Below are positions 48,450-64,000 of a DNA stretch of 64,000 bases, piece after piece. A program made the position numbers and the translations under genes. Positions within the stretch are counted from its first letter, which is position 1, and each line of letters starts with the position of its first letter. Location of the stretch: positions 1 to 64,000 of the forward strand of contig JAFSUD010000024.1 in NCBI GenBank assembly GCA_017445405.1, read 5' to 3'. The notes under the pieces are model-generated. The model saw nothing but the letters and a program-made list of their open reading frames with translations, did no database searches and was not told the DNA's origin. This stretch comes from Synergistaceae bacterium. GTDB lineage: Bacteria > Synergistota > Synergistia > Synergistales > Aminobacteriaceae.

Positions 48450-49780
48450 ACTACCCCCGCTTGAAGAAGCGGGAGCTTCCTAATTCAATGAGGTTGCGCT
48501 GCGATATTCTGCAAGTGTCTTATGTCCTCTCCAAAGGCGTGAATTTCCTGCGTCCCACAGGTATTTCCCTTCGAAAGCACTATCATGTTCAGGGCTGCAT
48601 GGATGTCTCGGTCTTCTCTATATCCGCATGAGCATTCATATATTCGGTCTGAAAGCGTTATATCTCTGTTCAGTTTTCTGCATTTAGGACAATATTTCGT
48701 CGTCGGTGCTGATTTCGGCAAGACTATTACTCTATCATTCTTCATTAACTTAGCTTTCAATAGCCCAAGTACTGAGTGCTGCACTGGCCGGCCAAATAGT
48801 CCCTTGTGCCAACCCTTCAAGTTCTCGTCCTGCATATATACATGCTCATGTTCCAATAGCTCATAAACGATTTTGTTCGCTATATCTTTCTTCAGGTTCG
48901 TTAATCTTTGATAGGCTTTCTGCAATAACTTCCTCGCCTTATACCGATTGTTAGAACCCTTCTTGCGCCTAGACATTAAACGCTGGCACTTCTTTATCCG
49001 TTCACTTTCTTCAATCTGTACTTTTATCTTTCGCCCGTAGGAGGTCGTTATTGTCGTCTTTATTCCCATATCTATTCCGATTTCCGGCTTATATTTCTTC
49101 TCTTCTCCTCCCTTATTCTGATAGGTCGTTACTGCTAGATAATAACCATCAGGCAGTTTTAGCAATTTTGCATTAGCAAATTCTAAATCCGGGATATTCC
49201 AGAACTGCTTTGCTCCCTTAATTCTTATCCAGCCTTTGAAGCCTTGTATGCCTATATGCTTGTCGTCATAGAACCTGTACGTTACTTGATATTGCTGAAG
49301 ATTTATTGACGCATATTCGGATTTGTAACGCAAACTTCCTGCTTGATGATTATGTTCCTTAATCGAGGCAAGAGCTTTCAGGCTATGCTTTATGCCTTGA
49401 ATTACTGACTGTTTCATCTGTGCTCCTAAATATTCAAGCTCATGTGTTGCCGGAAGTCTGTCTTTATCCAGTCCTTGAACTGTCTGAACCGCCATATTGT
49501 ATCCGTTAATATTATGGTCATTCATGAAGGTTAGTGCATCATTGTACAGCCACTTAGCTTCAACAAAGAGCATCTGCAAGCGTTCTTTCTGAGCATTATT
49601 CAGGTGAGAGATGTCGATTTTCACTCGGTACACACGGCAAACTTGAGACTTGCGTTTTTCGCGGGTCTGTTTGCCTTGCTCTCGTATACGGTTATTCTTT
49701 GCTAATCTCTCTTCTGCTGTCATGGGAAAATTATATACTAGCAATTCATCTTCCGCTTACAGAAGTGGGAGTTTTCTTGC
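48446..49780 (-). mobile_element. full-length tnpB-only IS of the IS200/IS605 (IS1341-like) group
   Basis: The edges are defined by comparison with the mini-element at 4672-4959. On the tnpB strand the left end starts GCAAGAAAACTCCCACTTCT and the right end finishes GGTAGTTCAC. Subterminal hairpins are CCCGCTT/AAGCGGG at the right end and CCGCTT/AAGTGG at the left. No tnpA is present. The right end abuts the cNMP-binding gene; the left end lies directly upstream of the aldolase promoter. Confidence 0.85.
48485..49723 (-). CDS. tnpB: TnpB, RNA-guided nuclease of the IS605 group
   Basis: About 412 residues from the ATG at 49723 (a TTG seven codons upstream is also in frame). It has the N-terminal helical domain with DISHLNNAQKERLQMLF. 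RuvC-like catalytic residues lie in EIGIDMGIKTTITT (Asp near 218), VYMQDENLKG (Glu near 301) and YREDRDIHAALN (Asp near 372), with a zinc ribbon CPKC and CSCG between. All key residues are intact, so it could be active. TnpB cuts DNA using an omega RNA from the IS right end. The C-terminus AFGEDIRHLQN is like the remnant in the mini-IS. Confidence 0.93.
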   Translation of the reverse strand: MTAEERLAKNNRIREQGKQTREKRKSQVCRVYRVKIDISHLNNAQKERLQMLFVEAKWLYNDALTFMNDHNINGYNMAVQTVQGLDKDRLPATHELEYLGAQMKQSVIQGIKHSLKALASIKEHNHQAGSLRYKSEYASINLQQYQVTYRFYDDKHIGIQGFKGWIRIKGAKQFWNIPDLEFANAKLLKLPDGYYLAVTTYQNKGGEEKKYKPEIGIDMGIKTTITTSYGRKIKVQIEESERIKKCQRLMSRRKKGSNNRYKARKLLQKAYQRLTNLKKDIANKIVYELLEHEHVYMQDENLKGWHKGLFGRPVQHSVLGLLKAKLMKNDRVIVLPKSAPTTKYCPKCRKLNRDITLSDRIYECSCGYREDRDIHAALNMIVLSKGNTCGTQEIHAFGEDIRHLQNIAAQPH

Positions 49781-51002: not shown

Positions 51003-52169
51003 ATGAAGCTGTACTACACGGAAAACACGACAGATGAAGAGGGAAAGCGCGTGCAGAAGCCTGTGCCGATTCCGTCGAAATACACGATGGACAGCGAGGG
51101 GTATTACTGGGAGTACCGGGGGACGTATGACGGCGAGGATTTGTACGTGCCTGCGCCTCCGTGGGCGGGGAACATAAACTTTTACCTTTTCGAGGGGCCG
51201 AATATCATTATTGAGACGCACAGCAAGCCCCTGTGTGATGTGCCGGAAATGAGAATGGGAGCAATGCCCATAGATGATAGCAATTTTCTGCTCACTACTG
51301 AGGAGAAGGACGAGCTGATTCGGACTGACCCGCTCGCTGAGAAGTTCATTCGTCCATTCATGAACGGTAAAGAGTTCATCAACAGAATACCGCGCTGGTG
51401 CTTGTGGCTGAAGGGAGTCGAGCCTGCAGACATTCGGAAGTGTCCGAGAGTGCTTGAGAGGATAGAGAGGGTGCGTGAGTTCAGGCTGAAGAGTAAAGCC
51501 TCAACGACGAAGAAGGCCGCAGATACCCCTATGCTGTTTATTGGGCCGCGTGAGTGCAAGACAAACTACCTAGCAATTCCGAAGGTGTCATCAGAGACGA
51601 GAAAGTATATCCCTATGGACTGGCTGACTCCTGACGTGATACCAGGCGATAATCTATTTTTCTGCGAGAACGTAACTCTGTATCACTTCGGCGTGCTGAT
51701 GTCCTCTGTCCACATGTCATGGGTTCGGCACTTCAGCGGACGACTTACGAGTCGATTCAGATACAGCAACACGATAGACTACAACGCGTTTCCCTGGCCG
51801 AAAATCAACGAAGTCCCATGGTTTCCCGACGGCAACCCCCTAAAGCTCGCCATAGAACGCACAGCACAGGCAATCCTTGATGCACGCGCAATGTATCCCC
51901 GAAGCTCACTAGCAGACCTGTACGACGAACGCACAATGCCTCCTGAACTCAGGAAAGCTCATGAGGCGAACGACGAAGCCGTGATGAATGCATACGGTTT
52001 CGTGAGGCACTATGAGGATGACAAGCAGCACGACGAGGACATAGCAATATCTTTGATGTACATGTACAAGAAATTGACCGGCTGCAAAGAGTACACGTAC
52101 AGCTACACGAATCTAGACTTGTGGGAGAGATATTACGGCCCGTATGAAGATGACGAAGAGGAGGGCTGA
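51003..52169 (+). CDS. MmeI-like DNA methyltransferase remnant: target-recognition and C-terminal domains only
   Basis: A 388-residue open frame that matches only the last part of MmeI-type (type IIL/IIG) restriction-modification enzymes. It covers the start of the recognition domain (NIIIETHSKPLCDVPEMRMG), the TRD (EKFIRPFMNGKEFINRIPRWCLWL, MLFIGPRECKTNYLAIP) and the C-terminal region (NTIDYNAFPWPK, SLADLYDERTMPPELRKAHEAND). The nuclease and methyltransferase domains (NPPY motif) are absent. GGGAGG precedes the ATG, so a DNA-binding fragment could still be made. The aldolase terminator lies directly upstream and no promoter is evident. Functionally a truncated gene unless the fragment works in trans. 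Confidence 0.8.
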   Translation: MKLYYTENTTDEEGKRVQKPVPIPSKYTMDSEGYYWEYRGTYDGEDLYVPAPPWAGNINFYLFEGPNIIIETHSKPLCDVPEMRMGAMPIDDSNFLLTTEEKDELIRTDPLAEKFIRPFMNGKEFINRIPRWCLWLKGVEPADIRKCPRVLERIERVREFRLKSKASTTKKAADTPMLFIGPRECKTNYLAIPKVSSETRKYIPMDWLTPDVIPGDNLFFCENVTLYHFGVLMSSVHMSWVRHFSGRLTSRFRYSNTIDYNAFPWPKINEVPWFPDGNPLKLAIERTAQAILDARAMYPRSSLADLYDERTMPPELRKAHEANDEAVMNAYGFVRHYEDDKQHDEDIAISLMYMYKKLTGCKEYTYSYTNLDLWERYYGPYEDDEEEG

Positions 52170-55446: not shown

Positions 55447-55554
55447 GTTTCTGAAGTTTACGCGTAAATACTTAGCGGAAAATTTCATGTTCTTTCATCT
55501 CTGGTGCTAAAATCAATCCTCATAGCTTCATCAATAAATTTAGGAGGTAATATC

Positions 55555-58500
55555 ATGTACAGAAAGTTATCGGCAGTGATGGTCATTGCCGGAATCTTGT
55601 GCGGATTATGCGCTCTGCCTGTGCTTGCAGAGGCGTACGAATCCGTGCCGCTTTCTCCCGAGTTCCTGAACTGGAAGCCTCAGTACGGAAACATACCCGA
55701 CAGAGCAGACAGAACTTCAGGCACATCACGAAAACCGCTCGGAAGCATTCCAGACCCGATAGACTTGTCGCATCTCCTGCAGAACCCTCCGCGTCCCCTC
55801 ACCTCTGACGGCCAGCCTTCACTGGACAGAGATTTGCCGCTGCCATCATCTTATGATCTGCGAATCTATGGCCGTGTTGGCACAATCAGGGATCAGTATC
55901 CGTGGGGTTCTTGCTGGGCATTTGCGGCCGCAGCAAGTCTTGAGTCAAGCTACATGACTAATTATCCGGGCACTTCGCCCGACTTGTCAGAAATGCACCT
56001 TGCGTACTTCGTTTACGGAGACCAGCGAGAAGGAAAATCATTCGTCATAACTGATGAAACAAAAGATATTCTGGATCAGGGAGGCAACGCAGGCCAAGCA
56101 ATAGCATTATTCTCAAGGGTTGGCACAGTGAGCGAGTCAGTTCTTCCCTATGCTACGAGCAAGACATACACCGCCCCGAATCTTCTGCCCGAAAGCTACG
56201 ACCTCTCAGGCATCCGCATGAAGGAAGCCTACACTCTCGGCCTTGTCAGCGGAGACACAATCAGCACCGTGAAGTCATTGATTATGAACAACGGAGCCGT
56301 AAGGATAAGCTATTTTGCTGCGGACGGAGGAGAAAGTCCGAGTACTGCTAACAATGCAAGCACGATCGCCTATTTCTACAACCTCTCCGGGACGAGAACT
56401 AATCATGCAGTTACGCTTATAGGCTGGGATGATGATTTCGCTGTTACTAACTTCGCGGAAAACATGAGGCCTTCAAAGCCGGGTGCGTGGCTGGTCAGAA
56501 ACTCTTGGGGCAATGATTGGGGAGATAACGGCTATTTCTACATGTCATATGAGCAGTACATTACTTCAGCCGTCGCGTTCGTTGCTGAGGCCTCGCAGGA
56601 AGACTTCACCATTTACCAGTATGACGACTTGGGAGGATGCACAACTGCTCCGTTCCAGTGGTCAGCAAACGTCTTCAAGGCTTCCAATGATGAAGAGATG
56701 AAGCAGATAGGCTTGTACACCAGCAACAATAATCTTAACTATGACCTCTATATCTACGACATCGGGACATCAGCTCCATCTTCATCGCCGAGAACCGGAA
56801 CGCTTTTGTACAGCAAGACGTTTTACAGCCCGTACACAGGCTATCACACGGTCAGCTTAGACAAGACAGTTACAATTTCTGCAGATCATTATTTCTCTGT
56901 TGTCATGAATATGAATGATAACTACTCCTATGTTGAGAATGCTGTGAAGTGGTCTGGCGACATCTATTATGCCAATCCTGTGGTGAACGAAGGCGAGAGC
57001 TATTTTTCCGATGACGGCACATCATGGACTGAAGGCACAAAGATAAATTACTCTAACGTTGAAGGCTACTCAAAGCACAATGCATGCCTCAAGGTCTTCA
57101 CAAATACAATTCTGCCAGAGCCTCCTGGCCTCGAGATCACAAGCGAAGATTTCCCTGATGATAACTTCAGAGCCTACATTCTGAGCAGCACAATAGACAA
57201 GAATCAGGACGGCCACCTCAGCGCGTCAGAGATTCGTTCTGCAACAGCTATTGACGTATCAGGCAGGAACATAGCCTCGCTCAAGGGCATAGAGATATTA
57301 GCGAGCATAGATTCACTAGTCTGCAGCAATAACAATCTGCCCTCCCTCGATGTAAGCTCCCTCGACACTTTGACCTCCCTCAACGCATCAGGCCAGAACA
57401 TCACGGGACTCAAGGTTACCCAGAGCAGCGACACACTCTACTATGCAGACCTCACTAAAGCCGTCTCTCTGGACTTCTCGAACGTCAGCGCGGACAGCTT
57501 CGATCAGGCGACGGGAATCATGACTCTTGCTTCACTGCCTGAGAGCGTTACCTACTTCTACGACACAGGATTTACCGGAACATCAGGCCGTTGGATGAGC
57601 GTAATTGTCTCGCCCTCGCCAGCTCCCGCAATAGTTACCGGCTATCTTCCTGACGCTCCCCAAAGCTCCGACTACTCCGTCCAGCTTCAGGCACTCGGAA
57701 ATTCGCCCATCACGTGGAGCACGACGAGCACTCTTCCCGCAGGCCTCTCGCTCAGCGATTCGGGAGTCCTCTCCGGAAATCCCGGCGAGTCCGGATCGTT
57801 CGATCTCGTGATCACAGCGAGCAACGATTCAGGCACAGACACGGTTACTCTTTCTCTGAGTGTCAGCCCGATTGCGCCGGTCATCACGTCAGCCCGGAAT
57901 CTCGGCCGTGTCCGCATCAGCAAGGCACTATCCATTGACTTGGCCGCATCAGGAACAACGCCGATAACGTGGTCGCTCGTCTCCGGAGACCTCCCGGAGG
58001 GACTCTCGCTCGACGCATCAGGCAAAATCTCGGGAACTCCTTCAGAGTCCGGCACGTTCACATTCACCGTGAAGGCCTCCAACATGGCAGGAGAAAGCCC
58101 TTCTGCAGAATTCACGCTCGAGGTCTACAAGCCCTACATAGTCATCTCTGAGGACAACACAACTGTGATTCAGGGCACTGACGGGACGGAATACACCTTC
58201 ACGTTCAACGTAGACTCGAAGGACATAGCAGACGACGCAGTGTGGACATGGACTCTCGAGGGCAGTCTCCCAGCAGGGCTGAGCTTCGACAACGGCAGAA
58301 TCTACGGTACTCCGACAGAGGCCGGCTCGTTCGATATCACAATCAAGGTGCAGGCTGAGGAGTTCTCCGACTCTAAGAACTACACGCTCGTGATTAATTT
58401 TGCAGCTCCGGCAATCACGACCGAGAGTCTCCCTGCCGGAAGAATCGGCGACAGCTACACGGCGAGCCTTGAGGCATCAGGAACGCAGCCCATCAAGTGG

Positions 58501-60918
58501 ATAGTTACGGGGCTTCCTGCGGGACTGAGCAATGACGAGTCGGGAACTATCAGCGGCATGCCTTCAGCAGTATTCTCGGGAGACGTTCAGATTGAGGCAG
58601 TGAACAGCTCGGACACCAAAGACACAAAGACTTTGAGGCTGCTTATCGTGAGCAGGGATGTATCGCTCGAGGTCGTCTCAATCGATGCTGACAACTTCCC
58701 GGATGATGTGTTCATGAACTACGTGAGGACGTTCGACACTGACAGCAGCGGTTCTCTGGGCATTGAAGAAATTCTTGCGGCAACAGTTATAGACGTGCAC
58801 GGAATGGGCATATCAGACCTTACGGGAATAGAGCACTTTTCTGCACTTGTCTCGCTTGATTGCAGTGTGAACAGCCTGGCAGCCCTTGATGTCAGCAGGA
58901 ATAAATATCTGTCGTCCCTGAACTTTGACGGCCAGAGTGTGAACGGCCTGAAGTTTACTCTGACAGAAGGCCTCTACACTGTTGACATGAAGGAATATGT
59001 TTCCGGCGACGTGGACAATGTAACAAACCTCAGAGTTTCCGGAGACGTTGCAGGCAGTTACGACGATACTACCGGGCTTGCAGTATTCAGCATACCTTAC
59101 GGGAGCATAAGCTACGAATACAAAACCGTGCTTGGCAATATGCCCGTAACTCTTACTGCAGATGATTACGTGCCTTATGACGAGAGCGTCAAGGATGTAG
59201 GGATTTCCGGGCTGTCTGTCAAGCCTAGATTTGCGATGCCCGGCAATCCTGCAGATGATGCATACGCCGTAATATCCCAGTCTGACGATGCAGAAAGATT
59301 CTGGGAGAACGTTTTAGTGAGCTATGTATCTTCCCGCGACGCAAAGGCAGTGTTTGACTCACTGAAAGCGGAACTCATCAGCAAGGATACTCCGCAGCTT
59401 TTGGCTATAGTGCTTCCGGAGTTCACGGTGAGCGAGGACAGATCGTACATGTTCAGGATACCCGTTGACAACATAACGAGTTCTGACACAAAGATATTTG
59501 TGTACGATTCAGGGATAGCGAGCACTGATTACGAGTTCATGACGGACAGCGGAGACAAGGTGAGTGCAATATCCGGCTGCGAATATATCAACGTGATAGT
59601 GAAGCTCAAGGCCGGAAAGTACGCGCCTGTAATTACTGCAGCGGCTTCAAGTAATGATGTTGATCTGATTGCTGCGAGCATGGTTACTCCTGCGCCTGTG
59701 AATCCTCCCGCACCTGTGAATCCTCCTGCGCCTGTGAATCCTCCGAGTCCTTCATCACCGGATACTCCAGCCTCGCCGGATGTCTCGCCCGACGTGAGTC
59801 CGGATGTTCCTCCGGCATCTCATGATGTGAGTCCTGACGTTTCGCCTGATGTCTCGCCTGACGTGAGTCCTGATGTTCCGCCGACATCTCATGATGTGAG
59901 TCCTGACGTTTCGCCGGATGTCTCGCCTGACGTGAGTCCTGATGTTCCTCCAGCGTCTCATGATGTGAGTCCTGATGTTCCGCCAGTCTCGCCCGACGTG
60001 AGTCCGGATGTTCCGCCGTCATCGCCAGATGTGAGACCGGAATCGCCGGATAACCCCGCGCCTCCTTCATCACCTGACGTGAGACCAGAGTCCCCAGACA
60101 ATCCCGCGCCTCCGTCATCGCCTGATGTTCAGCCGGACAACCCTGTAACTCCAGAGTCGCCCGACGTTCAGCCGGACAATCCTACTCCTCCAGAATCGCC
60201 CGACGTTCAGCCGGGAGACGCAGAGGCAGTACAGCCCGAAGCTCCGAGCGTTGATCTTGATGATGAAGACATTGTGCAGGTAATCATCAATGCGATTCAG
60301 CAGGTCATAGGCTATCTTTCAGGGAACACCGAAGTAGCCGAACTTCCCGAGTCGTCAGCCGGAGCAGAGAGGGACGAGCTTTCTGATGAGGAGCTTGCGC
60401 AGATTCCTGAGAGCGAAGACGTAGCAGCTATTCTTCCTGTAATAGTAGTTCAGGAGGCAAAAGTTTACGTTTTCGGCGTTAAGCTGAATCTCCCTGCAGG
60501 TACGCTTATAGTTCTTCACCTCATGGCAGAGGACACAGGAACTAACGGTGCAGAAGTCTTTGACGCTGCTTCAGACAATGACGCTTACACGTTCCTTGAC
60601 GACGACGGCAACAAGATAGACCGAGTCCCGGCGAACCAGCACGTGAACATAGCTGCCTACATGGAGCCGGGCTATACGTATGCGCCTGTCATCACGACGA
60701 AGGCATCATCAAGTTCTGACGGAGATAACACCGGCGGCAATACCGGCAACAATACCGGAGATAACACCGGAGGCAACACCGGCGGCAACACTGGCGGCAA
60801 TACCGGAGGCAACACCGATAACAATGACGGTGCTGGAAGTTCCGGAGGCGGCTGTGAGGCCATGTCTTCAGGATTAGCAGCATTAGCCCTTCTCTTCACA
60901 CTCAAGAGAAAGCGTTAG
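55555..60918 (+). CDS. giant C1 (papain-like) surface protease with Synerg-CTERM sorting tail
   Basis: About 1787 residues. Order: signal peptide; papain-type domain with nucleophile Cys120 (WGSCWAFAAAAS), His284 (TNHAVTLIGWDDD) and Asn316 (VRNSWGNDWGDNGYFYMSYE); a lectin-like domain (VFKASNDEEMKQIGLYTSNN); an EF-hand/leucine-rich block (DKNQDGHLSASEI); three putative Ig domains (GLSLSDSGVLSG type); a second EF-hand/LRR block (DTDSSGSLGIEEI); an SPDV/PPAS-rich low-complexity stalk; a beta domain; a GGNT repeat; and a C-terminal SGGGC, hydrophobic helix and KRKR. The tail matches Synerg-CTERM. The ATG at 55555 has AGGAGGT six bases before it. It probably degrades or binds host or diet proteins at the cell surface. 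Confidence 0.93.
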   Translation: MYRKLSAVMVIAGILCGLCALPVLAEAYESVPLSPEFLNWKPQYGNIPDRADRTSGTSRKPLGSIPDPIDLSHLLQNPPRPLTSDGQPSLDRDLPLPSSYDLRIYGRVGTIRDQYPWGSCWAFAAAASLESSYMTNYPGTSPDLSEMHLAYFVYGDQREGKSFVITDETKDILDQGGNAGQAIALFSRVGTVSESVLPYATSKTYTAPNLLPESYDLSGIRMKEAYTLGLVSGDTISTVKSLIMNNGAVRISYFAADGGESPSTANNASTIAYFYNLSGTRTNHAVTLIGWDDDFAVTNFAENMRPSKPGAWLVRNSWGNDWGDNGYFYMSYEQYITSAVAFVAEASQEDFTIYQYDDLGGCTTAPFQWSANVFKASNDEEMKQIGLYTSNNNLNYDLYIYDIGTSAPSSSPRTGTLLYSKTFYSPYTGYHTVSLDKTVTISADHYFSVVMNMNDNYSYVENAVKWSGDIYYANPVVNEGESYFSDDGTSWTEGTKINYSNVEGYSKHNACLKVFTNTILPEPPGLEITSEDFPDDNFRAYILSSTIDKNQDGHLSASEIRSATAIDVSGRNIASLKGIEILASIDSLVCSNNNLPSLDVSSLDTLTSLNASGQNITGLKVTQSSDTLYYADLTKAVSLDFSNVSADSFDQATGIMTLASLPESVTYFYDTGFTGTSGRWMSVIVSPSPAPAIVTGYLPDAPQSSDYSVQLQALGNSPITWSTTSTLPAGLSLSDSGVLSGNPGESGSFDLVITASNDSGTDTVTLSLSVSPIAPVITSARNLGRVRISKALSIDLAASGTTPITWSLVSGDLPEGLSLDASGKISGTPSESGTFTFTVKASNMAGESPSAEFTLEVYKPYIVISEDNTTVIQGTDGTEYTFTFNVDSKDIADDAVWTWTLEGSLPAGLSFDNGRIYGTPTEAGSFDITIKVQAEEFSDSKNYTLVINFAAPAITTESLPAGRIGDSYTASLEASGTQPIKWIVTGLPAGLSNDESGTISGMPSAVFSGDVQIEAVNSSDTKDTKTLRLLIVSRDVSLEVVSIDADNFPDDVFMNYVRTFDTDSSGSLGIEEILAATVIDVHGMGISDLTGIEHFSALVSLDCSVNSLAALDVSRNKYLSSLNFDGQSVNGLKFTLTEGLYTVDMKEYVSGDVDNVTNLRVSGDVAGSYDDTTGLAVFSIPYGSISYEYKTVLGNMPVTLTADDYVPYDESVKDVGISGLSVKPRFAMPGNPADDAYAVISQSDDAERFWENVLVSYVSSRDAKAVFDSLKAELISKDTPQLLAIVLPEFTVSEDRSYMFRIPVDNITSSDTKIFVYDSGIASTDYEFMTDSGDKVSAISGCEYINVIVKLKAGKYAPVITAAASSNDVDLIAASMVTPAPVNPPAPVNPPAPVNPPSPSSPDTPASPDVSPDVSPDVPPASHDVSPDVSPDVSPDVSPDVPPTSHDVSPDVSPDVSPDVSPDVPPASHDVSPDVPPVSPDVSPDVPPSSPDVRPESPDNPAPPSSPDVRPESPDNPAPPSSPDVQPDNPVTPESPDVQPDNPTPPESPDVQPGDAEAVQPEAPSVDLDDEDIVQVIINAIQQVIGYLSGNTEVAELPESSAGAERDELSDEELAQIPESEDVAAILPVIVVQEAKVYVFGVKLNLPAGTLIVLHLMAEDTGTNGAEVFDAASDNDAYTFLDDDGNKIDRVPANQHVNIAAYMEPGYTYAPVITTKASSSSDGDNTGGNTGNNTGDNTGGNTGGNTGGNTGGNTDNNDGAGSSGGGCEAMSSGLAALALLFTLKRKR
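59760..60210 (+). repeat. low-complexity SPDV/PPAS stalk repeat
   Basis: Imperfect 12- to 60-bp tandem units encode SPDVSPDV, PPASHDV and PDNPAPPSSPDV runs. Many units are near-identical in DNA, so the length is likely to vary between strains and be hard to assemble. Confidence 0.9.
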
Positions 60919-60930
60919 ACAAAACCATTA

Positions 60931-60963
60931 CCCCCTCAGCTCACAACTGGGGGGGCTTTTTTT
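60931..60963 (+). terminator. intrinsic terminator after the Synerg-CTERM protease gene
   Basis: CCCCCTCAG and CTGGGGGGG form a strong stem over a seven-base loop, followed by CTTTTTTT. Confidence 0.93.
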
Positions 60964-60987
60964 CTGCCCTGAGTGAATCTGATGCAC

Positions 60988-61016
60988 TGGACAGCAAAAT
61001 TATTATTGCAGATAAT
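60988..61016 (+). promoter_or_regulatory. promoter C of the motif family, before the AAA+ operon
   Basis: TGGACA at 60988-60993, 17-base spacer, GATAAT at 61011-61016. The upstream GAATCTGATGCACTGGA closely matches promoter B (AAATCTGATGCACTGGA). The spacer itself differs, so the conserved part is the -35 element and the roughly 12 bases before it. Confidence 0.7.
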
Positions 61017-61039
61017 CTCAGCATCAAATCGCAAAGGGG

Positions 61040-61990
61040 ATGACGCAAATTCCTTTAGGCACGCCAAGAAACACAGCATCTAAGCAGGAAACTGACAGCA
61101 AGCCGGAAACTAAACCTTCTTCACAGATTCAGTGGAAGCTCTCAGAACCCCGCTATTCCATGCAGGATATAATTCTTGCTCCCGATACTTTGAGAGAACT
61201 TGAGGACGTAATCTCTTACGTTCAGAACAGAGAAAAGCTCTTCAACGAGTGGGGGCTTGCAGAAAGGTACAGAGACAGGGACAGCCTAGCAGTTAATCTC
61301 TACGGAGAACCGGGCACAGGCAAGACTATGGCAGCTCATGCAGTTTCACGTGAACTTGGCCTCAAGATGATATGCGTTGATTATGCAGACATAGAGTCAA
61401 AGTATGTTGGAGAGACCTCAAAAAATCTCTCTTCACTTTTCCGCATGGCCTCAGAGTCAGGGGCAGCAATATTCTTTGATGAAGCAGACGCTCTCCTCAG
61501 CAAACGTGTTACTAACATGACTTCTGCAACAGATGTCAGCGTTAATCAGACACGTTCAGTTCTCTTGACGCTTCTCAATGATTACAGGGGAGTGATTATC
61601 TTTGCGACAAACTTCATACAGAATTTCGATGCAGCATTCTTGAGGCGTATACGCTATCACGTGAGGTTCAGCCTTCCGGATAAGGACCTGAGAGAAAAAT
61701 TGTGGAGGTTCTACATTCCTGCGAAACTGCCGGTCAGTGATGACGCGGACATTGCCTCGCTTGCTGAAGAGTTCGGAGGCATCAGCGGAAGCGATATAGC
61801 TAATGCAGTGTTTTCTGCTGCGGTGAGTGCTGCTCATGATGAGGCTGAATCTGTGAGCATGGAGGCATTCAGGAAGGCGATCCGGAGCTGCATAAACGTC
61901 AAGGAGGCGAATCAGAAATCTGCAGTAAGGACGCGGATAGTGAGTGCGGAACAGGCAAAAGCTGAACTAGGCGTAAGGGAGGATTCTTAA
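61040..61990 (+). CDS. AAA+ ATPase (FtsH/SpoVK-like core) of unknown system
   Basis: A 316-residue single-domain AAA+ protein. A polar N-terminal tail precedes GEPGTGKT (Walker A, residues 89-96). The pore-loop-like region is DIESKYVGETSKNL, Walker B is AIFFDEAD (Asp147, Glu148), sensor 1 is FATNF, and the arginine finger is in FLRRIRYHVRFSLPD. The C-terminal lid is GGISGSDIANAVFSA. It has no protease or membrane domain and so acts as an unfoldase or remodeller of a partner. It heads a plus-strand operon with a 21-codon ORF and three unknown proteins, starting from promoter C. Confidence 0.9.
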   Translation: MTQIPLGTPRNTASKQETDSKPETKPSSQIQWKLSEPRYSMQDIILAPDTLRELEDVISYVQNREKLFNEWGLAERYRDRDSLAVNLYGEPGTGKTMAAHAVSRELGLKMICVDYADIESKYVGETSKNLSSLFRMASESGAAIFFDEADALLSKRVTNMTSATDVSVNQTRSVLLTLLNDYRGVIIFATNFIQNFDAAFLRRIRYHVRFSLPDKDLREKLWRFYIPAKLPVSDDADIASLAEEFGGISGSDIANAVFSAAVSAAHDEAESVSMEAFRKAIRSCINVKEANQKSAVRTRIVSAEQAKAELGVREDS

Positions 61991-62055
61991 TGCCGGATTT
62001 CCTGATGTCCGCGATGGCTGAACAGCATACAGCCTTAGAAGTAAGCAGTACATAA
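61990..62055 (+). CDS. 21-residue ORF coupled to the AAA+ gene
   Basis: The ATG shares its A with the TAA of the AAA+ gene (TAATG), and GGAGG lies seven bases before it, inside the AAA+ gene's last codons. The peptide MPDFLMSAMAEQHTALEVSS plus Thr has no known domain. The geometry favours translation; it may be a real micro-protein or a coupling device for the next gene, which starts 23 bases later. Confidence 0.45.
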   Translation: MPDFLMSAMAEQHTALEVSST

Positions 62056-62078
62056 TTTTATGAGGAGGAATATATATC

Positions 62079-62591
62079 ATGGGATTCTTTGATTCACTCG
62101 GTGATGCTCTCGTCTCACTGGGAAGCGGTATCGGCACGGTTCTCGAGGGAACTGTAAACGTCGTCGGCACTGTAGCGAGCACTACGCTTGACGTTGCAGG
62201 GACGGCAATAACTACGACCGCAAAAGTAGCTGTAAACACTGTAGAAGGAGTCGGGCGTACAGTCGTAGCAGCAGCAGAAGGCGACATAGGCAAAGCTCTC
62301 GGCGAAGTCGCTAACACAGTGGGCAAGGGCATGATCGGCACAGCTCTCGAGGGAGTAACTGAGGCAGGAGTCCGAGTCGGCAAAGGAGCAGGCGAGGCTC
62401 TCGAGACTACCGCGAAGACTGTCTGGAACACCGGCGGACATGCAGTAGATGCATTAGGCCACACGGTCAAGGGAACAGGGCAGCTTCTCACTGAAACCGG
62501 ACGTGCTGTTACAGGCGGCAACAAGACTACTGTAAGCACAGGCTACGTTGACCCCAATGAAGTACCTCCTGACATAAGGAACATGGCGTAA
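62079..62591 (+). CDS. 170-residue Gly/Thr/Val-rich repetitive protein in the AAA+ operon
   Basis: An almost featureless, weakly amphipathic protein of quasi-11-residue repeats (GTVASTTLDVAGTAITTTAKV, taken in parts; similar to tail-like or LEA-like helices). It starts GFFDSLGDALVSLGSGIGTVL. It ends EVPPDIRNMA, and a similar EIPPDI box occurs in the next protein. No signal peptide. Possible membrane-surface binder. GAGGAGG lies ten bases before the ATG. Family unknown. Confidence 0.75.
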   Translation: MGFFDSLGDALVSLGSGIGTVLEGTVNVVGTVASTTLDVAGTAITTTAKVAVNTVEGVGRTVVAAAEGDIGKALGEVANTVGKGMIGTALEGVTEAGVRVGKGAGEALETTAKTVWNTGGHAVDALGHTVKGTGQLLTETGRAVTGGNKTTVSTGYVDPNEVPPDIRNMA

Positions 62592-62971
62592 TGATAGGAA
62601 CGTTACTCATAACTGCAGCCGTAATATTCGGTGCAGGCGTGGTTGTAGGACTGTGGAGCTATTTTGTCTCGTTCGTCAAATCCTCGCTGGAGTATGTGTC
62701 TCAGGTCGTCAAGAGGTTCATCAAGGCTACATTTGCCGGTTTCAAATGCTTCCTGAAATGGGCAGGAGGCAGAGTCCGCGAGATAGTCAAGGGCTACACT
62801 CACGATGACATCAACGGCCAATGGGTAGTTACAGAACGCGAAACGATTCTTGATGATGATCAGGTGCTTGACGAGATACCGCCGGATATACTGGCAAAAG
62901 TCCGCAGTCAGAGCAGCAAAGCACACGACGTAACAAGAGAAGTAGAACTCACTCTTGAGAACTGTGCATGA
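62591..62971 (+). CDS. 126-residue membrane-anchored protein in the AAA+ operon
   Basis: An N-terminal membrane helix (GTLLITAAVIFGAGVVVGLWSYFV) is followed by a basic amphipathic segment and a charged cytosolic tail with DEIPPDILAKVRSQ. The start overlaps the previous stop (TAATG). Not recognised. A membrane anchor and a remodelling ATPase in one operon suggest a membrane-bound complex. Confidence 0.75.
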   Translation: MIGTLLITAAVIFGAGVVVGLWSYFVSFVKSSLEYVSQVVKRFIKATFAGFKCFLKWAGGRVREIVKGYTHDDINGQWVVTERETILDDDQVLDEIPPDILAKVRSQSSKAHDVTREVELTLENCA

Positions 62972-62988
62972 GGACAGGAGGAATAACA

Positions 62989-63438
62989 ATGCCTCTCAGC
63001 AAAAGCAGAAAGATTAATGAGCCGGTCTCTCAGCCTGATGAAGACGCAGCAGCTTTTCAGCGTTTTCTGGATGGGATCATAGCTGCATGGAAGAAGTTCT
63101 GGGGATTATTGCTCTCAGGGAGCATAACGTTTGAGGAGTTCCTTGCAGAAACAGGAGATTTCTTCGACAAGCACATTACTTCAACGGAAGATCAGAAGAA
63201 TCTCGAGTACGTAGGCGGGACTCTGACTCTGTCGCTTGAGGGAAGGAGCAGCATAGCAGTTGATGCAAAGCTGTACTACAAGCGGCCGGATTCAGACGAG
63301 AAAGCCAAACTTGTTATTCAGGAACTCAAGAACAATGTAACAGTTGACAGGTTCAGTGATTGGGAAACTTCACAGGATGCTAAAGATCTCAGGAGATTCA
63401 GAAAGCTGGAGTACCCTATCGACGCTCCCGAGATGTGA
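62989..63438 (+). CDS. 149-residue hypothetical protein, last of the AAA+ operon
   Basis: A soluble alpha/beta protein. A helical first half (AAAFQRFLDGIIAAWKKFWGLL, in parts) is followed by a strand-rich second half (GGTLTLSLEGRSSIAVDAKLYY, ELKNNVTVDRF). The ATG at 62989 is preferred to 62968 because AGGAGG lies between them, seven bases before it. No family recognised. A strong terminator follows. Confidence 0.75.
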   Translation: MPLSKSRKINEPVSQPDEDAAAFQRFLDGIIAAWKKFWGLLLSGSITFEEFLAETGDFFDKHITSTEDQKNLEYVGGTLTLSLEGRSSIAVDAKLYYKRPDSDEKAKLVIQELKNNVTVDRFSDWETSQDAKDLRRFRKLEYPIDAPEM

Positions 63439-63452
63439 ACATTTTTTGATGC

Positions 63453-63483
63453 TGCCCTCTGCAACTCACAGGGGGCATTTTTT
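63453..63483 (+). terminator. intrinsic terminator after the AAA+ operon
   Basis: TGCCCTCTG and CAGGGGGCA form a nine-base stem (one G-T) over CAACTCA, followed by TTTTTT. The distal half (CAGGGGGCATTTTTTAG) recurs at 63535 as part of a tail duplication. Confidence 0.93.
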
Positions 63484-63536
63484 AGTACGCGCCTTTCTTG
63501 CTCAGCACCGCATATACTGTTCGCAGCAGTATCACA
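63482..63536 (-). pseudogene. orphan 3' tail of a sugar-transferase paralogue
   Basis: On the minus strand this encodes [17 protein letters not shown] and a stop, exactly the C-terminus of the sugar transferase gene upstream of it (63548 onward), offset by 66 bases. The few differences are silent (TTG/CTG twice, GCA/GCG). Protein identity with only silent changes argues for a replaced allele or paralogue, not fresh slippage. Confidence 0.8.
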
Positions 63537-63547
63537 GGGGGCATTTT

Positions 63548-64000
63548 TTAGTACGCGCCTTTCTTGCTCAACACTGCATATACTGTTCGCAACAGTATCA
63601 CTATATCAAGCCATAATGACCAGTTCCGTATGTAGTAGAGGTTCATTTCCTTGCGGAGTTCGGTATCTACATCGCTTCTACCGCTTACCTGCCAAAATCC
63701 GGTCATGCCGGGCTTCACCATGTATATTTTCTTCGCAACGTAATCACCGTACGCAAAATCTACGTCGCTCTGAATTAACGGGCGGGGGCCTACAAGACTC
63801 ATTTCTCCTCTCAGCACGTTAAAGAGCTGCGGGAGTTCATCTATGCTTGTCTTGCGGAGAATGCGGCCTATCTTGGTGAGTCTCGGGTCGTTCTTGAGCT
63901 TGATTCCCTTGTGGTAGTCGGCGAGGACTTCGGGATCTTTGAAGAGTTCTTCTGTGCGCTTGTCTGCATCTACGTACATTGTCCTAAACTTACACACCTT
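63548..64000 (-). CDS. bacterial sugar transferase (WcaJ/PglC-like), 5' part outside the window
   Basis: The C-terminal 151 or so residues of a polyprenyl-phosphate sugar-1-phosphate transferase that starts a lipid-linked glycan. The visible part has [49 protein letters not shown] and [17 protein letters not shown], then a final helix. The N-terminal membrane segment and the true start lie beyond position 64000 (the frame stays open to the edge). With the ATP-grasp protein at 29 kb it points to surface polysaccharide synthesis. Confidence 0.92.

Follow-up and report, generated by a model that had tools for sequence, protein, structure and literature searches.

Organization of the operon

The window, i.e., the whole 64,000-nucleotide stretch of DNA analyzed, contains a compact operon flanked by a giant C1A-type peptidase gene (55504–60918) on the left and by a convergent sugar-transferase gene (63548–64000, minus strand) on the right; both names were read from the translations. 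The features of the operon are as follows.

60931–60955, plus strand: intrinsic terminator of the upstream C1A peptidase gene; 9-bp stem (7 GC) and T run
60945–61039, plus strand: promoter and leader, with TGGACA-17-GATAAT at 60988–61016; apparently of shared origin with the congeners' resident P0002 promoter
61040–61990, plus strand: P0001, AAA+ ATPase of the classical type, short-tailed at both the N- and the C-terminus; 316 amino acids
61990–62055, plus strand: 21-codon ORF (21 amino acids), with a GGGAGG site 7 nt upstream
62079–62591, plus strand: P0002, repetitive amphipathic 7/11-periodic protein, putatively a captured resident; 170 amino acids, orthologues in G030 and G031
62529–62588, plus strand: C-terminal extension of P0002, about 20 amino acids, motif EVPPDIR; from alignment and motif search
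62591–62971, plus strand: P0003, membrane anchor with N-terminal hydrophobic segment, amphipathic helix, hairpin, EIPPDIL motif and acidic tail; 126 amino acids
62873–62893, plus strand: tail motif EIPPDIL of P0003; P97 is invariant across the anchor family
62989–63438, plus strand: P0004, conserved alpha+beta partner; about 149 amino acids (156 from an in-frame alternative ATG at 62968)
63453–63477, plus strand: operon terminator; 9-bp stem, T6

A sequence-only reading of this DNA had described five coupled genes enclosed by their own promoter and terminator. All five ORFs are present (61040–61990, 61990–62055, 62079–62591, 62591–62971, and 62968–63438), and the enclosing terminators at 60931–60955 and 63453–63477 are both well placed. 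Terminator-like and promoter-like matches across the region are in no excess over shuffles, and the TGGACA-17-GATAAT match at 60988–61016, taken alone, is at chance level; what backs the promoter is its conservation in two congeners. The TAATG overlaps that had been noted occur at 61988–61992 and 62589–62593, but the ATGA junction probably does not mark where the last gene truly begins, since ATG 62989 (21 nt inside) has a well-spaced GGAGG before it whereas ATG 62968 lacks one. The 21-codon ORF is preceded by a usable ribosome site and ends 23 nt before P0002, with no overlap coupling between the two; it had no counterpart in any relative examined. P0002 has an intact frame and an intact ribosome site, its own AGGAGG. 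No Rfam RNA family was matched. The position of the true P0001 start codon is uncertain, because a GGGG directly abuts the annotated ATG with no spacing, and the MP[IL] with which its relatives start corresponds in the alignment to codons ATT CCT TTA, 9 nt farther on (61040–61055), for which the GGGG lies 9 nt upstream.

The AAA+ ATPase

The first ORF was rightly taken to be an AAA+ ATPase: P0001 matches AAA PF00004 at E = 2.6e-26, scores 28.1 with AAA_lid_3 against a cut-off of 27.2, and has the Walker A and Walker B (FDEAD) motifs, the pore loop KYVGE, and RR arginine fingers that place it in the classical clade. Walker A, FDEADA, KYVGE, NQTR, and RRI are invariant in an alignment of nine AAA sequences, and P0001 is 40–63% identical to the AAA proteins of the aligned loci. 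About 38 residues precede its AAA module and the protein stops shortly after the lid; a Pfam profile search found no protease domain, and the sequence has no HExxH. Against the PDB, the family profile finds VCP-like ATPases at E of about 1e-53, the neighbors being Cdc48/VCP-type ATPases. The top profile overall is phrog_3757 in PHROGs (203 bits, E = 1.4e-59), and the best named one is IetA (123.3 bits in NCBIfam, 127.7 bits in PADLOC), after which P0001 scores with proteasome-activating and Cdc48-type families. In a tree, P0001 nests with Bacillota sequences with moderate support (87/88), away from a Synergistota sister clade, a position that indicates horizontal transfer.

That second AAA clade comprises longer proteins (~380–440 amino acids, with an extra N-terminal region; L024–L030 in Synergistota, and L040:1953-4900) carried by several congeners and by a Planktothrix plasmid. 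Its genes adjoin several different small membrane-anchored proteins, and the architecture is therefore wider than the present module; on the Planktothrix plasmid, the neighbors include five small membrane-anchored proteins, an Hsp70-TPR protein, and a DUF87 helicase.

The membrane anchor and P0004

A single hydrophobic segment lies at the N-terminus of P0003 (Kyte-Doolittle mean 2.39), in agreement with the earlier description of this protein as membrane-anchored, and most anchors of the module share a hydrophobic N-terminus; those of L014 and L017 are only weakly hydrophobic there and look amphipathic. W22, G50, W78, P97, I100, and D113 are invariant in the anchor alignment. The structural model of P0003 is of low confidence (pLDDT 54.5) and predicts a tail made of a hairpin plus a helix, with VP just ahead of the helix. 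P0004 had been read as an alpha/beta protein, and AlphaFold2 indeed models it as alpha+beta (mean pLDDT 79), the confident core being two helices, a three-strand meander, a helix, and a strand; D60 and G77 are invariant in its family.

Neither partner could be placed in a known family. No partner of P0001 scored above cut-off in Pfam or NCBIfam or matched anything in PADLOC, the anchor matched nothing in the phage collection, PDB searches with the anchor and P0004 profiles gave nothing meaningful, and a fold search with P0004 yielded nothing below E = 1e-3 in either the PDB or BFVD. The view of the operon as an unrecognized one, with membrane-associated partners, thus survives comparison with Pfam, NCBIfam, PADLOC, PHROGs, and the PDB. 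Homology of the P0003 tail to the P0004 C-terminal domain was considered, as hhalign gave the same register, but at a probability of 1.7% it is not significant. At several loci, there is a fourth gene, whose product is hydrophobic in its N-terminal part and acidic at the C-terminus; those of L012 and L013 are homologous (E about 1e-12), and the likeness among the others is by layout only.

Distribution of the module

We surveyed one genome per species for 84,980 species, plus viral contigs, plasmids, and phages. The AAA, anchor, and P0004 genes occur in the same order at seven Bacillota or uncultured loci (L011–L017) and on an IMG/VR contig (L021/L022), which has two recombinase-like genes upstream; the hosts, cultured and uncultured Bacillota, include Lachnospiraceae, Flavonifractor, Intestinimonas, and Selenomonadaceae, among others. 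The trio is also found on Moraxella osloensis plasmid p2, followed there by a protein with a hydrophobic stretch, and on Comamonas pZM22-1 in an identical layout. The record of Moraxella prophage Mcat5 terminates with the AAA gene. In the viral contig scans, only L021/L022 were true members, all else being distant relatives. L014, L021, and Mcat5 have a WYL regulator directly upstream of the module; in L012 and L013, the upstream regulators are of the XRE type. Within the genus, copies without P0002 occur at other loci, as a module in G004 and as partial copies in G011 and G152.

Conservation of the gene set had been proposed as a check, and the trio is kept across phyla. The five genes, on the other hand, are not one system, because the 21-codon ORF is unconserved and P0002 appears to be a captured resident gene; only the AAA+/anchor/P0004 part of the proposed set stands. 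Sequence comparison shows this trio to be a conserved, horizontally spread module carried by plasmids, prophages, and other mobile elements. It is compact and cross-phylum, with two unnamed partner families, and our literature search found no published description of it.

Some further loci deserve mention. The module AAA gene of G004 (L070:4108-4608) lacks the Walker B segment and the lid, its downstream anchors and P0004 being intact; this may reflect decay or mis-assembly. In G011, a transposase-like ORF (L067:4842-5168; IS256-like by eye) adjoins a module reduced to P0004. L039 (MT835507.1), a distant AAA relative, lies beside a large helicase-like gene, an OmpA-domain gene, and a large coiled-coil membrane protein that is MotA/ZorA-like by eye; it may be a Zorya-related defense locus with an added AAA.

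Capture of P0002

The amphipathic repetition claimed for P0002 is significant: its hydrophobicity lags of 7 and 11 and its helical-angle peak of 96.5 degrees were matched by none of 5000 shuffles, and they would fit a membrane-surface helix. Weak matches of P0002 to SseC (E = 0.011) and to tail tape-measure proteins (PHROGs, best E = 7.7e-4) were judged to be composition effects of a repetitive helix.

Orthologues of P0002 are present in G030 (69%) and G031 (39%), in neither of which was an AAA module of this type found. The gene order in both is a 185-amino acid secreted-protein gene, P0002, and the convergent sugar transferase; in many other congeners, the first and last of these are directly adjacent with nothing between. 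One site is thus seen in three states: empty in many congeners, with P0002 alone in G030 and G031, and with the module in the window. Upstream of the P0002 orthologues, blastn aligned the promoter region at 60949–60999 to G031 (84.6%) and at 60945–61004 to G030 (76%). The promoter flanks and the -35 box (GCACTGGACA) are kept in the window, G030, and G031, and GATAAT in the window and one congener; a G-rich stem and T run equivalent to the 60931–60955 terminator also precedes the orthologue in both genomes. The two orthologues end before the last 20 residues of P0002, which carry the motif. In the G004 module, the order is AAA, a 97-amino acid anchor with the tail IDESEVPERYR, a second anchor, and P0004; in the window, P0002, with the tail VDPNEVPPDIR, occupies the slot of the first anchor.

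These comparisons show P0002 to be a resident gene of this Synergistota genus, one that was probably captured by the module. The likeliest history would be that the module came in around P0002 and used its promoter, P0002 being fused to an anchor-type tail. The direction of capture is of course what we infer; the reverse, in which G030 and G031 lost both module and tail, is less parsimonious. One instance of such a capture was seen.

The site has other peculiarities. A 66-nt tandem duplication, 95% identical (63466–63597), lies at the edge of the inserted segment and takes in the tail of the operon terminator together with the sugar-transferase 3' end. The giant peptidase (1804 amino acids, 55504–60918), which has SPDV repeats and a C-terminal sorting-like tail, is inserted at the same hotspot, with the 185-amino acid gene on one side and the sugar transferase on the other; in G021, the 185-amino acid gene is immediately followed by a related peptidase. 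Farther left, at 51003–52169 and 48485–49744, the translations show an ORF resembling a DNA methyltransferase/restriction C-terminal region without the N-terminal part, and nearby a TnpB-like zinc-ribbon transposon protein.

A shared tail motif

The anchor tails have the common pattern [ST]-E-x-[ED]-V-P-x-x-I-[RL], or E/D-x-[VI]-P-x-x-I-[R/L] in short form. A strict version, [EDKNQ][VI]Pxx[IV][RLK], was also found outside the anchors: at the C-terminus of P0002 (EVPPDIR); in L015, near the C-terminus of an upstream protein, in the AAA tail (VSESEVPKDIL), and near the N-terminus of a downstream protein; and, in L016, at two places in an additional small protein. The non-anchor operon proteins gave six matches in 11,865 residues, versus three in 114,789 residues of host protein background (301 ORFs, drawn from the window and from sampled stretches), none of the three being within 25 residues of a C-terminus. 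The corresponding Poisson values, 3e-4 for at least four matches and 9e-7 for at least six, are optimistic, because the pattern was chosen after some of the matches had been seen.

Interpretation

Our best explanation of the whole, to which we assign a probability of about 0.5, is a mobile module, passed on horizontally, whose AAA+ ATPase carries out remodelling directed at the membrane. This ATPase would form a hexameric, peptide-threading ring with no protease, and the small partners would be held at the inner membrane via a transmembrane or amphipathic segment, their cytosolic C-terminal regions exposing the short-form motif. That motif would recruit the partners to the ring, directly or via the conserved P0004, and the ring would pull on, extract, or disassemble them as Vps4 does with ESCRT-III, by analogy only. 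The partners would be exchangeable, in that a membrane protein given the motif could join. In the window, the module would have reached a chromosomal site already holding P0002, which is probably membrane-surface-binding, and taken over its promoter; P0002 would have gained the motif tail and replaced the first anchor of the congener's module. A surface-binding protein such as P0002 could stand in for a transmembrane anchor, because its periodicity fits a surface helix and the L014 and L017 anchor N-termini look amphipathic. Like the sequence-only reading, we infer that membranes are remodelled and that the system may be phage- or stress-related.

More tentative is the proposal that E-x-VPxxI-R/L is a transferable tail tag letting a mobile AAA+ protein adopt membrane partners, the window being a recent adoption, in which resident P0002 would have come to bear the tag under the shared promoter, and the whole a modular bacterial counterpart of Vps4 with its tagged membrane substrates. 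The motif could instead serve only the structure of the anchor tail and not docking, with P0002 an accidental passenger whose tail is a functionless junction product. That the capture was seen once, and that the low-confidence model predicts a hairpin plus helix with VP before the helix, would fit such an explanation; we nevertheless find it rather unlikely, as P0002 and, close to their ends, unrelated L015 proteins have the motif by itself with no hairpin, and P0002 keeps its frame and ribosome site while filling the first-anchor slot of G004. It is very improbable that the operon is simply decaying in this metagenome-assembled genome, with no current function: the module is sporadic in the genus, the G004 AAA is defective, and a transposase adjoins the cut operon of G011, but the ORFs in the window are all intact, the catalytic residues are kept, and promoter, Shine-Dalgarno sites, and terminator are in place.

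As to biological role, conflict with phages or mobile elements is the most likely, at lower confidence, as suggested by the mobility of the module, its WYL/XRE regulators, and its kinship with IetA. One form of this, which we regard as possible without favoring it, is an anti-phage or anti-element defense of the IetA kind, with the AAA+ protein sensing or remodelling a component of the invader and the membrane proteins acting as killing or envelope-protecting effectors. IetA being the best named profile in both databases, the regulators at five loci, the more distant relative beside large helicase-like and OmpA-type genes, and carriage on plasmids, recombinase-bearing contigs, and a prophage end are all in keeping with it, although the cargo of mobile elements is not always defense, the 510-bit IetA cut-off is not reached, an S8 peptidase partner is lacking, no known effector domain was found, and no recognized defense genes adjoin the operon within the window. 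A factor for maintenance or assembly of a prophage, plasmid, or integrative and conjugative element, the AAA+ protein building or clearing an element-encoded membrane complex, would also explain the plasmid and prophage-end locations and the additional fourth gene with hydrophobic segments at several loci. It seems improbable to us, in that the operon here is chromosomal, without tail, conjugation, or secretion genes in the window, and the partner genes track no single element type.

To our knowledge, few protease-free AAA+ machines that work on membrane-bound partners are recognized in bacteria. The module offers a tractable case, being small and mobile, with two unnamed partner families and a common tail motif. 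P0002 with and without its tail is a natural before-and-after pair for tag-based partner recruitment, and its capture, ending in the shared motif, suggests how such machines acquire partners. Should a link to conflict with phages or plasmids be established, the module would be a new type within the IetA-like group.

Comparison with known systems

IetA of IetAS (NF042959; PADLOC PDLC02196) resembles P0001 in having a single classical AAA+ domain (123–128 bits), but the 123.3 bits of P0001 are far below the cut-off of 510, no S8 (subtilisin) peptidase IetS is adjacent (no partner matched a peptidase), and the membrane anchors and P0004 do not belong to IetAS. The strongest profile, phrog_3757, has no function assigned and carries no partner-gene information. 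MoxR-vWA ternary conflict systems pair a MoxR-type AAA+ protein with a vWA co-chaperone (PMC7159879); neither MoxR nor vWA was matched here. Contractile injection system ATPases differ in their context, no tail sheath or baseplate genes being seen in the window; L018, a distant AAA relative, adjoins sheath-like genes.

FtsH has an AAA domain of the same broad clade and a membrane context, whereas P0001 lacks both the M41 zinc peptidase (HExxH) and a transmembrane segment of its own. Bacterial AAA+ operons linked to PSP/Snf7 also place AAA+ genes near membrane proteins, and ATP-dependent membrane remodelling has been proposed for them (PMC11237479); they contain PspA/Snf7, flotillin/band-7, or two-AAA proteins (PMC11237479), all of which are absent here. 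Vps4/CdvC with ESCRT-III differs in that P0001 has no MIT domain and its partners, none with a Pfam match above cut-off, are not of the Snf7/PspA type; the likeness of the module's motif to ESCRT-III tail motifs is an analogy only. In its presumed way of working, however, that system is a counterpart: a classical AAA+ ring without a protease, with an aromatic pore loop, and a short tail motif on membrane partners. The KYVGE pore loop and RR fingers of P0001 are invariant, and the ring itself is predicted.
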